Source: an uncultured Verrucomicrobiota bacterium (lineage in GTDB: Bacteria > Verrucomicrobiota > Verrucomicrobiia > Opitutales > Opitutaceae). From it: 34,886 nucleotides of DNA. Under the pieces are notes generated by a model. That model was given only the letters and a program-made list of their open reading frames with translations, was not told the origin of the DNA and did no database searches. The stretch spans positions 1 through 34,886 of the forward strand of contig CAJXQX010000042.1 in NCBI GenBank assembly GCA_913058185.1, written 5' to 3'. Below, piece after piece: positions 10,803-25,460 of the stretch. The translations under genes and the position numbers were made by a program. The first letter of the stretch is position 1, and every line of letters begins with the position of its first letter.

Positions 10803-13544
10803 CTAGGCGTCGTAGTCGAGGTAGGGCCCCAACCACTTCTCGGCATCGGCCAGCTCCTTGCCGCTGCGTTTGGCGTAGTCTTTCAACTGGTCTTTGCCGA
10901 GCTTGCCTACCGCAAAATATTTGGACTGCGGATGACTGAAGTAGAACCCGCTGACGCTACTGGCGGGATACATGGCGTTGGACTCGGTGAGTATGATGCC
11001 GGTGGCCGCCTCAACATCGAAGAGCTGCCATAGCTGTGGCTTCTGGGTGTGATCGGGGCAGGCCGGATAACCGGGCGCTGGACGCACGCTCCGGTATTTC
11101 TCCCGAATGATTTCCTGCATGGAGAGGTCTTCGGTTTTGCCGTAACCCGCGAAGTCACGGGCTTTCTTGTGAAAGAGTTCGGCCATAGCTTCGGCGATCC
11201 GATCGCCCAGAGCCTGCACTATGATCGCGTTGTAGTCGTCTCCGGCATCCTTAAATTCTTTTGAGAACGTTTCGACACCGGATCCGGCGGTGACAGCGAA
11301 GCCGCCAATATAGTCGATCCTACCGCTGTCCTTAGGGGCGATGTAATCGGCCAAGCAGTGGTTGAATAGGTTGACGGGTTTCTCCTGCTGCTGGCGGAGA
11401 AAATGAAATGTATCTAGAACCTCACTGCGATCGACATCAGTGTAGACCTCGACTGAATCACCAACTGCGTTGGCCGGCTGGAATCCCATGATGGCGCGAG
11501 GGGAGAAGCGTTTCTCGACGACGATGCGTTCCAGCAGTTCCTTGGCATCGGCAAAGAGCTTAGTCGCTTCTTCGCCGACCACTTCGTCGGTGAGAATATC
11601 GGGATAACGGCCATGCAGTTCCCAAGCGCTAAAGAAAGGCCCCCAGTCGATGAAGGGGACGATGTCCCCAAGTTCCAAGTGACAAGTATCAAGTAACAAG
11701 TCATCATCAGCAGCGCTTTGCGCCGCACTAGACTCCGATTGATTGTTGCCAAAAATTCGGGTGCCCAGGAATTCGGGTTTGGGGATGTCGATGTGGGCCC
11801 AGTCGAACTGCGGAGCGCGGGCGCGAACTTGGGCGATCTTGAGCAGGGGTTTGCGGTTGCGGCGGGCCTCGAATTGCTGGCGCTGTTCGGCCTGCTTTTT
11901 GGCATTCTCCGCCATGTAGGCGGGCTTTTGCTCATCGCTGAGCAGCGCGCTGACCACATTCACTACGCGAGAGGCATCGAGCACGTGCACCACGCCGGGA
12001 GCGTAGTTGGGCGCTACCTTCACGGCGGTGTGGGCAGTCGAGGTGGTGGCTCCGCCGATTAACAACGGCACATCGAAACCTTCCCGAGTCATTTCCTTGG
12101 CCACGTGCACCATCTCGTCGAGTGACGGGGTGATGAGTCCAGAAAGTCCGATCACGTCGGCGCCGATCTCTTTGGCTTTCGCCAGAATTTTTGCGCACGA
12201 GACCATCACGCCCATATCGACCACTTCGTAATTGTTACAGGCGAGCACCACGCCGACGATGTTTTTGCCGATGTCGTGCACGTCGCCTTTGACCGTAGCG
12301 ATGAGGAATTTTCCTTGGGCTTTGGTGACTTGACCGGCGGCGATCGCCTTGGCTTTTTCCTTTTCCATGAACGGGGTGAGGTAGGCCACGGCTTTCTTCA
12401 TCACCCGGGCCGATTTGACCACCTGGGGGAGAAACATTTTTCCAGCGCCGAATAGGTCACCGACGACGCGCATGCCGTCCATCAACGGCCCCTCGATAAT
12501 GTCGAGTGGGCGAGGAAGCTTTTGGCGGCACTCTTCGGTGTCGGCTTCGATAAACATGTCGATGCCCTTGACCAGAGCATGACTCATGCGGGCTTCGACG
12601 GGTAGTTCGCGCCAAGCCGCCGCGGCGGGTTTGGCGGCGACCACGCCACCGGCCTTGGCCGCATCGGCCTCGGCTTTGAGCTCTTCAGCGTGAGTGATGA
12701 GTTTGTCGGTCGCGTCGGGGTTGCGGTTGAGCAACACATCGTCGACGAGGTCGCGGAGCTTTGGTTCGATTTCGTCGTAAACCCCGAGCATGCCGGCATT
12801 GACGATAGCCATGTCCATGCCTTGGCGGATGGCGTGGAAGAGGAAGGCGGTGTGCATCGCCTCGCGCACGGGGTTGTTGCCGCGAAAAGAGAACGAAACG
12901 TTGGAAACACCACCGGATATTTTGGCGCCGGGCAGGGTGTCTTTGATGATCTTCGTAGCTTCGAAGAAATCGACCGCGTAGTTGTTATGCTCCTCGATTC
13001 CGGTGGCGACGGTGAGGATGTTCGGATCGAAGATGATGTCCTCGGGGAGGAAGCCGATGCCGGTGAGCAAATTGTAAGCGCGGGTGCAGATGCGGACCTT
13101 CTCGTCGCGAGTTGCGGCCTGGCCTTCTTCGTCAAACGCCATGACCACGGCTGCGGCGCCGTAGCGCATAAGGAGACGGGCGCGTTTGAGGAAATCTTCC
13201 TCGCCATCCTTGAGCGAGATGGAATTTACGATGCCCTTGCCTTGGAGGCATTGCAGGCCGGCTTCGAGCACACTCCATTTGGACGAGTCCAACATGATCG
13301 GCACGCGACAGATATCAGGCTCAGCGGCGATCAAGTTGAGAAACTTGACCATGGTGGCTTCTCCGTCGATCAGGGCTTCGTCGACATTTATGTCGATGAT
13401 GTTGGCGCCGTTCACGACCTGCTGGGCGGCGATGGCGAGACAGCCGTCCCAATCGTCGGCCTTGAGCATACGGGCGAAGCGGGGAGAACCGGTGATGTTG
13501 GTGCGTTCACCAACGACGAGAAAACGGGATGCAGCGTTAAACAC
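10803..13544 (-). CDS. metH: Methionine synthase MetH, folate/B12/activation domains
   Basis: This 913-residue protein is the C-terminal two thirds of cobalamin-dependent methionine synthase, which moves a methyl group from 5-methyltetrahydrofolate through B12 to homocysteine. In order it has the pterin-binding domain ([23 protein letters not shown]; residues about 8-290), the B12 cap (about 310-400), the B12-binding Rossmann domain with the base-off motif [12 protein letters not shown] near 415, and the SAM-binding reactivation domain ([10 protein letters not shown] near 630; [12 protein letters not shown] near 820). The homocysteine domain is encoded separately by the gene upstream, with 139 bases between them. 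The start is GTG 13544, with no good ribosome binding site. Near residues 600-625 an extra low-complexity stretch overlaps an AAGTNNC heptad array. All catalytic parts look intact. Confidence 0.95.
11670..11701. repeat. AAGTNNC heptad array inside metH
   Basis: On the plus strand four 7-base units AAGTTCC, AAGTGAC, AAGTATC, AAGTAAC are followed by AAGT. The same unit type forms the array at 15101-15132 on the other strand. In metH the array is translated as [11 protein letters not shown] in the linker before the activation domain, so it appears to have entered coding sequence without breaking the frame. Confidence 0.8.
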
Positions 13545-13607
13545 GGAAAGTAGGTAGCTGATTAGTGAGTAGGATGGAGGAGAGGGTCGCTGGGTAAAAA
13601 TCGTTCT

Positions 13608-13678
13608 CTTACTCGTTCTCGTTCCTCTTTCTCTCTGCTGGAATGGACTGATCCAGAACGAGAATGAGAAAGAGTAAG
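13608..13678. repeat. CTCGTT-type inverted element at the metH split
   Basis: The ends are CTTACTC (13608-13614) and GAGTAAG (13672-13678). The left arm continues as ACTCGTTCTCGTTC, and the right arm reads GAGAATGAGAAAGAGTAAG. The right arm matches 17 of 19 bases of the right arm of the element at 25304-25435. It occupies about half of the 139-base gap between the two metH genes. Confidence 0.7.
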
Positions 13679-13683
13679 ATAAG

Positions 13684-14757
13684 TTACGCCACGGTCAGAG
13701 GTTCGAGACCGGAGAGTTGTAGGGTATTGGAACGAGCGGGAACCGGACGGACGGAGAGGCCTTTGACGGCGTCGGCGATCGCGGAGATGTGGTCCGGAGT
13801 AGAGCCGCAGCAACCGCCTACGACATTTACGAATCCGGCATTGGCGAATTCGGCGAGATCAGCAGCCATGTCATCAGGCTCTTCATCGTAACCGCCAAAT
13901 GCGTTCGGCAATCCGGCGTTGGGATAGCACGTCACGTAACATTCGGCGACGGCTGCGAGCTCTTCCATATAGGGCCGCATATCTCTGGCGCCTAAGGCAC
14001 AGTTGATCCCGACGCTGAAGGGCTTCGCGTGGCGAATGGAGTGGTAGAAGGCGTTGATCGTTTGACCCGACAAGGTGCGGCCTGAGGCATCGGTGATCGT
14101 GACGCTGATCATCACCGGCAGGCGGGTGCCGGTTTCTTCAAACACCGTAGCAATCGCGAAGAGGGCGGCTTTCGAGTTCAACGTGTCGAAAATCGTCTCA
14201 ACCAGCAGCGTATCGACGCCGCCGGCGACGAGGGCGCGCACCTGTTCGGTGTAGGCTTCGACGACCTGAGCCCAGGTCACGGCGCGATATTCCGGGCGAT
14301 TGACGTCGGGCGACATCGAGAGCGTTCGGTTAAGAGGTCCGATGGCACCGGCCACGAAACAACGTCGACCCGGAGTTGCTTTCTCTGCAGCCTTAGCGGC
14401 GCGGCGAGCGCATTGCACAGCGGCCGTGTTTAGGTCAGTGACGACCGACTCAAGGGCGTAATCGGCCTGACCGATAGTGGTGCTGCTGAAAGTATTGGTC
14501 TCCACCATGTCGGATCCGGCCGCGAAATAACGTTCGTGCACCTCTTGGATGATGTCCGGACGGGTGAGACAGAGCAGGTCATTATTGCCCTTGAGATCGG
14601 AAGGGTGGTCGGCGAAGCGCTCCCCGCGAAAATCAGACTCTTCCAAACCATACCCTTGCAGGACAGATCCCATAGCGCCGTCGAGCACGCCGATACGCTT
14701 GGCAAAAAGCTCGTTTAGGTCGGAAAACACCGGTGAATCGGACATGATAGAGGACAT
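13684..14757 (-). CDS. metH: Methionine synthase MetH, homocysteine-binding domain
   Basis: This 357-residue protein is the N-terminal homocysteine methyltransferase domain of MetH as a separate gene. It has [17 protein letters not shown] near the start, the zinc-binding Cys in GINCALGA (about residue 250) and the paired Cys in [12 protein letters not shown] (about 315). It ends with [10 protein letters not shown], the sequence that normally leads straight into the folate domain in one-piece MetH, so the split lies exactly in the interdomain linker. The following gene is not in the same frame (139-base gap). Both proteins must associate to work. A palindrome lies 44 bases upstream of the start, and the B12 uptake operon diverges from this gene. 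Confidence 0.93.
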
Positions 14758-14800
14758 GGTGATGAAATTTCACTCGTTCTGGAGAGAGAGCGCAAGATTA

Positions 14801-14830
14801 CATATCAAAATATTTAAATATGTTGATATG
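14801..14830. promoter_or_regulatory. 30-bp near-perfect palindrome between metH and btuB
   Basis: CATATCAA at the left and TTGATATG at the right are joined by an AT-rich centre (ATATTTAAATAT). 14 of 15 base pairs match across the dyad; the only mismatch is at 14809/14822. It lies 44 bases upstream of the metH homocysteine-domain gene and in the shared promoter region of the btu operon. Symmetry and position suggest an operator for a dimeric regulator of methionine or B12 genes. Which regulator is unknown; ArsR-type SahR, known to control metH in some Proteobacteria, is one candidate to test. Confidence 0.65.
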
Positions 14831-15100
14831 AGATAGAATTACTTCAAAACTTGAGGTTGCATTCGCCGGATAAAACGCCCGAGAGTCGCATCGTTCCTTG
14901 ATTTTGTCCCGTTCAGCGAGGAAGGCCGTGAGAATCGGCCACAGTTGCGCTGCGGTAACACACCAGTCCAAAACTCCATTCGATCTAACCAGATCGGAGT
15001 AAAACCAATCCCGGTTCGCCGGGGTGAAGGTGGAGTAGAGGCAGCACGCGCCCCGTGCCAAGCAACACGTTCCAGTCACAGGTAAAAAGAGCATCCGCTT

Positions 15101-15132
15101 TTGATACTTGTTACTTGCTACTTGATACTTTG
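15101..15132. repeat. AAGTNNC heptad array, intergenic copy
   Basis: Read on the minus strand, the units AAGTATC, AAGTAGC, AAGTAAC, AAGTATC follow each other. This is the same 7-base unit as the array inside metH at 11670-11701, in the opposite orientation on the plus strand. Confidence 0.8.
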
Positions 15133-15317
15133 AGCGAGGCACGAGCGAACGTGTGGAGTCCGAACACTTGCCCGGGATAGCTCACGCGTTAGCCGCGATA
15201 CTTTTGCGCGCGGCTTTCGTGAAATCTTCATCGCAAAAATGAAGCGTGGGAGTAGTTCCGAACACGGACTCAGGTCCGGGCTCAATTACTCTTATTTTAA
15301 GACAGTTGTTCGTGTTC

Positions 15318-25203: not shown

Positions 25204-25303
25204 GAGAAGAAAGTCAGAACAGGTTGGGCGGGGAGAGAAAGAGAAAGATAAAGAATAGAGAGAAAGAATTGGGGTGAGAATGGGAGAGCTCTTCGATTAT
25301 CTT

Positions 25304-25435
25304 CATACTCGTTCTCGTTCTCGTTCTCGTTCTCGTTCTCGTTCTCGTTCTCGAGATTCGCGCTATACCAGCGGAGTGGCTCAGTCGAGATGCAGCTGGG
25401 AGGCAGCTGGGTCGGAGAGAATGAGAACGAGTATG
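25304..25435. repeat. (CTCGTT)7 microsatellite with inverted arm
   Basis: Seven exact CTCGTT units run from 25308 to 25349. The left end CATACTCGTTCTC (25304-25316) is perfectly repeated in inverted form as GAGAACGAGTATG (25423-25435), and the similarity extends to 18 of 19 bases. The element thus has terminal inverted arms and a hexamer array at one side. It shares its right arm with the element at 13608-13678. Confidence 0.8.
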
Positions 25436-25460
25436 AGTGGGAGAGCGAGAATAGGGACGG

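Follow-up and report, generated by a model that had tools for sequence, protein, structure and literature searches.

A heptad array inside a split methionine synthase gene of an uncultured Opitutaceae bacterium belongs to a dispersed family of AAGTNNC mini-repeats

Very small mobile repeats in cyanobacteria have reportedly been the subject of earlier work. The accessible part of a 2013 report (PMC3733652) describes intragenic REPs of the GTAG and CGTC families, including those of Opitutus terrae, with copies inside the open reading frames of core genes (DnaE2 and uvrA are named); REPs lie mostly downstream of coding regions, and flexible linkers or loops are suggested by the authors as tolerant sites. 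In the available text of MacGregor (2015; PMC4679880), TAACTGA heptamers form direct repeats of 2–6 copies that are dispersed over the genome, patchy across phyla and in some cases located within open reading frames. Degenerate GGGAATC/GGGGATT heptads of Xanthomonas and Nostoc, as outlined in a 2015 report (PMC4692102), prefer four units, form inverted pairs and are intragenic in a minority of cases. Rickettsia palindromic elements of approximately 150 bp are summarised in a review (PMC10969869) as inserting in frame into unrelated metabolic genes and coding for a conserved peptide. Finally, template-switch mutations are described, in the text available, as creating or repairing hairpins: local sequence is copied as its reverse complement, which yields perfect stems and compensatory changes of several bases (PMC8794818). 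Heptamer arrays are therefore known from several phyla, and the papers compared, as far as their accessible parts go, leave the origin and movement of such arrays open.

The DNA analysed here, referred to as the window, is a 34,886-nt stretch of contig CAJXQX010000042.1 (assembly GCA_913058185.1) from an uncultured bacterium of the Opitutaceae. The labels of its nearest named MetH relatives (Verrucomicrobia, Opitutae or Opitutaceae) suggest the same placement. Methionine synthase is split over two minus-strand genes in the window. The first, metH2 (10803–13544), encodes a 913-residue protein with pterin-binding, cobalamin-binding and activation domains (Pfam Pterin_bind, B12-binding_2, B12-binding and Met_synt_B12), and this domain content, together with relatives in the PDB, identifies the product as a cobalamin-dependent methionine synthase; solved MetH structures cover its domains. 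The second, metH1 (13684–14757, 357 residues), carries a separate homocysteine S-methyltransferase domain by Pfam. A heptad array inside metH2, given in the initial annotation as four units within 11660–11720, is indeed present, and pattern searching placed it at 11670–11704: on the plus strand, four perfect AAGTNNC units (AAGTTCC, AAGTGAC, AAGTATC and AAGTAAC, 11670–11697) are followed by a degenerate fifth, AAGTCAT (11698–11704). Since metH2 lies on the minus strand, the array is read as CTTGNNA units. As the annotation had stated, the frame is kept: it is open through the array, with domains matched on either side, and from this and the conservation of the domains the array is presumably translated.

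The heptad-coded part of MetH2 corresponds to approximately residues 614–625, in the linker before the activation domain. For these residues the earlier claim that the array encodes part of an extra linker holds, but the preceding stretch (residues ∼600–613; 11706–11747, minus strand) contains no AAGTNNC units and is longer in the relative G005, as judged from sequence, alignment and an AlphaFold model. A hairpin, GGGGAC-GAT-GTCCCC (11655–11669, plus strand; locus L026, stem score 6), abuts the array within the codons of a GDIVP stretch and is also present in G005; an inverted-repeat finder with a minimum length of 12 reported nothing between 11600 and 11760, the metH stem being 6 bp. The AlphaFold model of MetH2, built with 25 sequences, has a mean pLDDT of 78.2 and a pTM of 0.50. 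Residues 602–617, which make up most of the insert, fall below a pLDDT of 50, as do residues 1–13, 298–307, 367–370 and 816–831. The insert is thus disordered in the predicted structure, and a disordered linker would explain why it is tolerated. A second array of four AAGTNNC units (15103–15130, minus strand; locus L028) lies between metH1 and a TonB receptor gene, inside a 114-residue open reading frame (14798–15142) that has no Pfam match, and has no good hairpin (stem score 2). The annotation had treated this array, as 15101–15132, as the same as that in metH2; the two belong to one family, but their unit order differs and they lie on opposite strands.

Within the window, two-unit matches with at most one mismatch number 8 against 1.25 expected, a count reached by none of 100 shuffles. 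The genome-wide scan proposed in the annotation bore out a dispersed family. In the source genome (G000, 4.09 Mb; other G numbers denote the relatives compared), three exact AAGTNNC units were matched 53 times, 24 forward and 29 reverse, and the reversed-pattern control gave 0, so that these are dispersed head-to-tail arrays of at least two units per site at a frequency far over chance. The 53 matches were grouped by hand into 33 places, and a two-unit definition gave 42 arrays in the 28 loci holding them. Among the eight genomes of the genus, triple-unit matches number 53 in G000, 39 in G004, 27 in G005, 3 in G002 and 1 in G007, with 0 in G001, G003 and G006. Outside the genus, in a set of 38 genomes including G000, they were found only in G010 (4), G017 (4) and G023 (5). 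The reversed control gave 0 within the genus, and in the same 38 genomes it matched 22 times in G012, 5 in G008 and once each in G010 and G020, so that in some genomes outside the genus the reversed string is repetitive in its own right.

Many arrays are preceded by a hairpin. A total of 69 arrays were scored, 42 from G000, 17 from G005 and 10 from G004 (all 33 places in G000, and part of the places matched in the other two, 13 loci in G005 and six in G004), and a hairpin was called flush when a stem with a score of at least 6 ended no more than 2 nt from the array start. Flush hairpins were found on the 5′ side of 44 of the 69 arrays and on the 3′ side of 4, compared with 1.1% of 2760 random positions. 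By genome, under a slightly different array definition, the counts are 27/42 in G000, 10/18 in G005 and 7/10 in G004, with 2, 0 and 0 on the far side. The stems have 41 distinct sequences among the 44, and 38 of the 44 loops are of 3–4 nt. The dinucleotide CG stands immediately before the array in 44/69 cases against a background of 10%. No hairpin reached the threshold at 25 of the 69 arrays, the second window array among them. In metH, tails with an insert of at least five residues (49 genomes) have a mean hairpin score of 6.06, with 24 at 6 or more, whereas minimal tails (48 genomes) have a mean of 3.62, with three at 6 or more; the difference is significant on genus means (P = 1.4e-5), with the provisos that the tail window can take in the last insert codons and that six genera fall in both groups. 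Hairpins are rarer beside other heptads (TCAACNN 8/19, GTCACNN 3/17, TCAGCNN 1/25), and on these counts hairpin adjacency was rejected as a general rule for heptad families.

The comparison with described systems is one of partial likeness. REPs, as far as their accessible description goes, resemble AAGTNNC arrays in being small repeats with stem-loops and with copies inside core genes; their stems, however, are conserved within a family and tagged by GTAG or CGTC, whereas what is conserved here is a 7-nt array lying outside the stem, 41 of the 44 stems being distinct. GTAG occurs in the four bases before the array in 1/42 cases in G000, 0/18 in G005 and 1/10 in G004, and CGTC in none. TAACTGA arrays are likewise dispersed, patchy and sometimes intragenic, but consist of one perfect heptamer, lie mostly just before start codons and, within open reading frames, mostly at protein ends, and a flush, flank-copied hairpin does not appear in the available text of their description (PMC4679880); the unit here is AAGTNNC / CTTGNNA, alongside other heptads. 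The GGGAATC/GGGGATT heptads share degenerate units, a preference for four of them, inverted pairs and a minority of intragenic copies with AAGTNNC, but as described they are G-rich and quadruplex-forming, and no run of three or more G is present in any of the AAGTNNC units listed. In place of the ∼150 bp and the conserved peptide given for the Rickettsia elements, the copies here are of about 30 nt and the insert peptides differ between genomes. The published account of template-switch mutations, in its accessible part, makes no link to a dispersed heptad array (PMC8794818). A literature search that covered titles and the starts of abstracts, with subscription papers thinly represented, returned no AAGTNNC arrays, metH heptads, recurrent different heptads in one linker or flank-copied array hairpins. 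Small in-gene repeats and heptamer arrays are thus a known class, and the AAGTNNC variant and its junctions appear new as far as the searched and partly accessible literature goes.

Next, the MetH linker was compared across the family. Of 120 genomes searched, 106 had a match, and 107 of the 114 loci tried were extracted; the extraction pattern missed seven (G090, G121, G017, G051, G082, G076 and G019), and G046 and G066 were matched but are absent from the linker set. Removal of seven named loci (four of them identical to G-numbered genomes) and three long rows from the 107 left 97 linkers from 42 genera. The variable segment is at least 30 nt in 58 of the 97 and ∼24–27 nt in minimal linkers; 48 of the 97 are minimal, with no insert of five residues or more. 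These minimal linkers and the dispersed genomic family support the earlier suggestion of a repeat invading a gene at a tolerant linker, to which the present analysis adds the recurrence in other genera, the hairpin beside the array and the copies in polymerase genes. Self-similarity at lag 7 exceeded that of codon shuffles (p ≤ 0.01) in 32 of the 58 longer linkers and in 18 of their 27 genera, whereas control lags of 4, 5, 8, 10 and 11 gave 0 and lag 13 gave 1 in the same 58; the 32 are not independent events, because the genomes are related. When lag-7 runs of at least 12/14 matches were sought in 14 whole metH open frames, four lay inside the linker and one outside, and lags 4, 8 and 10 each gave one outside and 0 inside. 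From these sequence comparisons, the metH linker is a hotspot for 7-nt repeats. The conserved linker acts as a natural trap, with 7-nt periodic DNA built of differing heptads in 32 genomes and 18 genera.

The heptads are CTTGNNA in G000 and G005, with degraded forms in G001 and G002, CATTGGA in G004, TCAGCNN in G003 and G022, TCAACNN in G062 and G071, GTCACNN in G078, CTCCGTC in G080 and CACTCCG in G069, and more exist; minimal linkers, for example that of G011, have none. According to the annotation, conservation of the same residues in distant relatives lacking the DNA repeat would have spoken against its reading, and this was not seen among the MetH linkers compared: G001 and G002, of the same genus, have DTC.L.L residues in common with G000, but their heptads are degraded members of the same family, and in other genera the linker peptides are unrelated and coded by other heptads. 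In several genomes, though not all, the metH heptad matches one that is abundant in the same genome. Triple units of TCAGCNN, TCAACNN and GTCACNN were counted genome-wide in 18 genomes, the metH heptads of G004, G069 and G080 falling outside these patterns. TCAGCNN was matched 58 times in G003 and 25 in G022, TCAACNN 29 times in G062 and 19 in G071, and GTCACNN 20 times in G078; G000 had 0 matches to each of the three. The rule fails in G010, G011, G013 and G024. G010 has 101 TCAACNN and five TCAGCNN matches, yet carries TCAGCTC units in metH; G011 (51 TCAACNN) and G013 (11 TCAGCNN) have minimal linkers despite their genomic heptads; and G024 has TCAAC-like units in metH with a single genomic match. 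The metH heptad also differs from the genomic one in G110 (16 TCAACNN) and G124 (11 TCAGCNN), and the reversed control exceeded the match for GTCACNN in G011 (31 vs. 21) and for TCAACNN in G080 (19 vs. 7). Two further features were observed at metH: a CGCTACT-like heptad in open frame near the metH2 start of G003 (L117), and, in G017 (L229; G017:C48:4795-4822), an AAGT array that closely precedes the match to the activation domain on its upstream side; the frame of that match is only 302 residues long, and the gene may be broken or split at its array.

Beyond metH2, few arrays lie within coding sequence. Seven of the 42 G000 arrays are inside open reading frames of at least 150 residues. Five are well inside genes, namely one in a DNA polymerase III alpha gene (L005), two in a second polymerase gene (L013), one in an AMP-binding enzyme gene (L011) and that in metH2. 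The other two open reading frames (L022, with a sub-threshold OpcA match, and L150, with no match) overlap the end of another long frame, which makes their starts doubtful. The labels dnaE and trpB, which we assume, stand for genes known here by their Pfam domains. In one linker of the first polymerase gene, compared by eye in 15 genomes of 18, AAGT arrays are present in G000, G004 and G005, AATCCGA-like heptads in G002 and G003 and TCAACNN-like heptads in G062, and none were seen in the other nine. Both inserts of the second polymerase gene contain, in the same order, a hairpin, an AAGT array, a GGGGTCA palindrome (decayed in one), GAGAAA hexads and AATCCGA heptads. Fragments of these inserts were found elsewhere, four with stop codons (two in G005, one each in G004 and G007) and at least two without (G000:C23:8765-8887 and G005:C356:427-720). 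In-frame repeat DNA in the genes for methionine synthase and DNA polymerase III alpha represents a route of linker lengthening.

The junctions of the arrays can be read where orthologous sites are empty in some genomes and filled in others, which makes the question of origin testable. At the gene end of L009, compared in six relatives, G005, G001 and G006 have neither array nor inverted copy, and G003 was uninformative. In G000 a 12-bp stem matches the gene's own last codons and is followed by the array, while G004 and G007 have stems of 7 and 5 bp in which the loop is the stop codon TAA, the G007 array being degenerate. In the second polymerase gene, G000 and G004 have the insert of site 1 in common, with similar downstream residues; the hairpins differ in sequence yet pair, perfectly in G004 and with one mismatch in G000, and the arm on the host side is similar to the sequence of G007, whose gene lacks an array. 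At these two orthologous sites only, the arm next to the array looks as if it had been copied, in inverted form, from the host flank. An arm that is the reverse complement of adjacent ancestral sequence, as expected of template switching, fits at L009 and polymerase site 1, with no clear fit at metH, the first polymerase gene or the PALP gene. Both arms of the metH hairpin are near the ancestral codons, so the case for flank copying is weakest there. At the PALP gene end, six genomes have a palindrome together with an array or what is left of one; G003 has only a looser quasi-palindrome and no array, and G006 was uninformative. The G003 quasi-palindrome and the plus-strand site of L146, where G002 has a hairpin without an array, indicate that some hairpins precede the array. 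By these alignments, the flank seems to have served as the template for making or remaking some hairpins, and at some sites a quasi-palindrome may have come first. That the inverted copies are assembly or amplification chimeras is unlikely, since six genomes, one of which is a single contig, have the PALP-gene palindrome, although for single loci this dismissal is weaker. Arms copied in inverted form from the flank would favour an origin in DNA synthesis over classical transposition.

The order of units within arrays bears on whether each array arose locally, a chance seed being extended by replication slippage. The tandem structure is simple, as such a local microsatellite would be, and G011 holds long perfect GTCACTG runs. 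However, in the 70 pooled arrays of G000, G004 and G005, neighbouring units were identical in 17/161 cases against 33.4 in permutations, and 96 array pairs had a three-unit order in common against a permutation mean of 36.6 and maximum of 80. Some of the pooled arrays descend from a common ancestor, which inflates this test, and it was therefore repeated per genome. For G000 alone, identical neighbours were 11/95 against 19.5 expected (P 0.009), and common three-unit orders linked 27 pairs against a mean of 11.8 (P 0.0015). The corresponding values for G005 are 4/41 against 7.7 (P 0.08) and 11 against 1.6 (0/4000 permutations). In G004 (10 arrays), identical neighbours were 2/25 against 6.2 (P 0.02), and there were no common three-unit orders, a result that slippage would accommodate. 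In two of the three genomes, G000 and G005, the arrays thus look like copies of one another. The association with hairpins and the recurrence of a single heptad at many loci of one genome, with none in some close relatives, also count against local slippage, which is disfavoured as the main origin of the arrays by the permutation tests and is very improbable overall.

The reading preferred here, by a modest degree, is that the metH feature is a copy of a dispersed, probably selfish mini-repeat that linkers tolerate, the hairpin being made or repaired by template switching. The mini-repeat would comprise approximately 3–5 AAGTNNC heptads (∼21–35 nt), mostly flush against a hairpin that is not a fixed part of it, since its sequence varies by locus. 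Existing copies, more than local slippage, would be the source of new ones, which would persist at gene ends and, where the frame is kept, in the linkers of a few core enzymes; there they are presumably translated as neutral filler. During replication, the nascent 3′ end would fold back and copy itself over ∼5–22 nt, leaving a loop mostly of 3–4 nt; synthesis would then continue on an array template, the array perhaps being copied in the same event, and later switching may re-perfect the arms as the flank evolves. A bolder form of this idea, offered tentatively and itself doubtful, is a new kind of self-spreading element, a heptad array with neither a fixed hairpin nor its own enzyme. It would spread by template switching, each insertion leaving the target flank duplicated in inverted form, and would repeatedly have introduced lineage-specific heptads into the same essential-gene linkers across the family.

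The chief rival, possible though on balance unlikely, is that these are REP- or MITE-like elements mobilised in trans, with Y1 transposases of the IS200/RAYT type recognising a hairpin and the motif beside it. Y1_Tnp matches are present in 29 of the 30 genomes searched; GGGGTCA and TGACCCC flank the gene ∼1 kb apart at three of six Y1 loci in G000 and at 9 of the 20 read overall; and GGGGTC/GACCCC lies within 150 nt of the array on the 3′ side in 14/42 and on the 5′ side in 5/42, against a background of 4.2%. The common order of array, GGGGTCA palindrome, hexads and AATCCGA heptads in the second polymerase gene would also suit this model, as would the intragenic REPs of Opitutus terrae in the accessible part of their report (PMC3733652). 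However, REPs would be expected to border a RAYT gene, and no AAGT array was found at any of the 20 Y1 loci read, which are part of those found; the stems differ at nearly every locus, unlike those of REPs; and Y1 counts do not track array counts, G001 having 18 Y1 matches and 0 triple-unit matches against 6 and 53 in G000. Transposase count as a predictor of array count was thus unsupported by the genome comparison. A functional element, in which the hairpin and heptads form a regulatory DNA or RNA signal or the MetH hinge has been adaptively lengthened, is quite unlikely. It would be consistent with the 18 of 42 arrays at the 3′ end of a same-strand open reading frame, with pairing kept at orthologous sites while the stem sequence changes, and with the reported position of most TAACTGA arrays before start codons (PMC4679880, in the text available). 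Against it, one linker holds different heptads coding for unrelated peptides, 48 of 97 linkers have no insert, hairpins occur inside genes too, and an Rfam scan of the window returned no family at the gathering threshold.

Several minor observations concern related repeats. Pyrimidine-rich GTCACNN/TCAACNN arrays at L336, L337, L343 and similar loci end a few bases before ATG, by eye, as has been reported for TAACTGA repeats. The GTCACTG runs of G011 (e.g. L335 and L351) are long and perfect, unlike the degenerate arrays, so slippage-like arrays exist in some heptads. The Y1 loci at which roughly 1 kb separates GGGGTCA from TGACCCC are L402, L403, L404, L409, L411, L413, L414, L419 and L421; non-autonomous derivatives of these may account for the short GGGGTC...GACCCC palindromes found elsewhere. 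In the window, a hexad-like array pair (TCGTTCTCTTAC... / GAACGAGAATGAG...) lies between metH1 and metH2 (13600–13680), with 25-nt arms that are 84% complementary and spaced by 31 nt. At 25234–25353 and 25417–25452, a perfect CTCGTT hexad run of 7.7 copies has an inverted partner of 20–36 nt downstream and an AGAGAA-rich stretch upstream, and hexads akin to this run occur in the inserts of the second polymerase gene.
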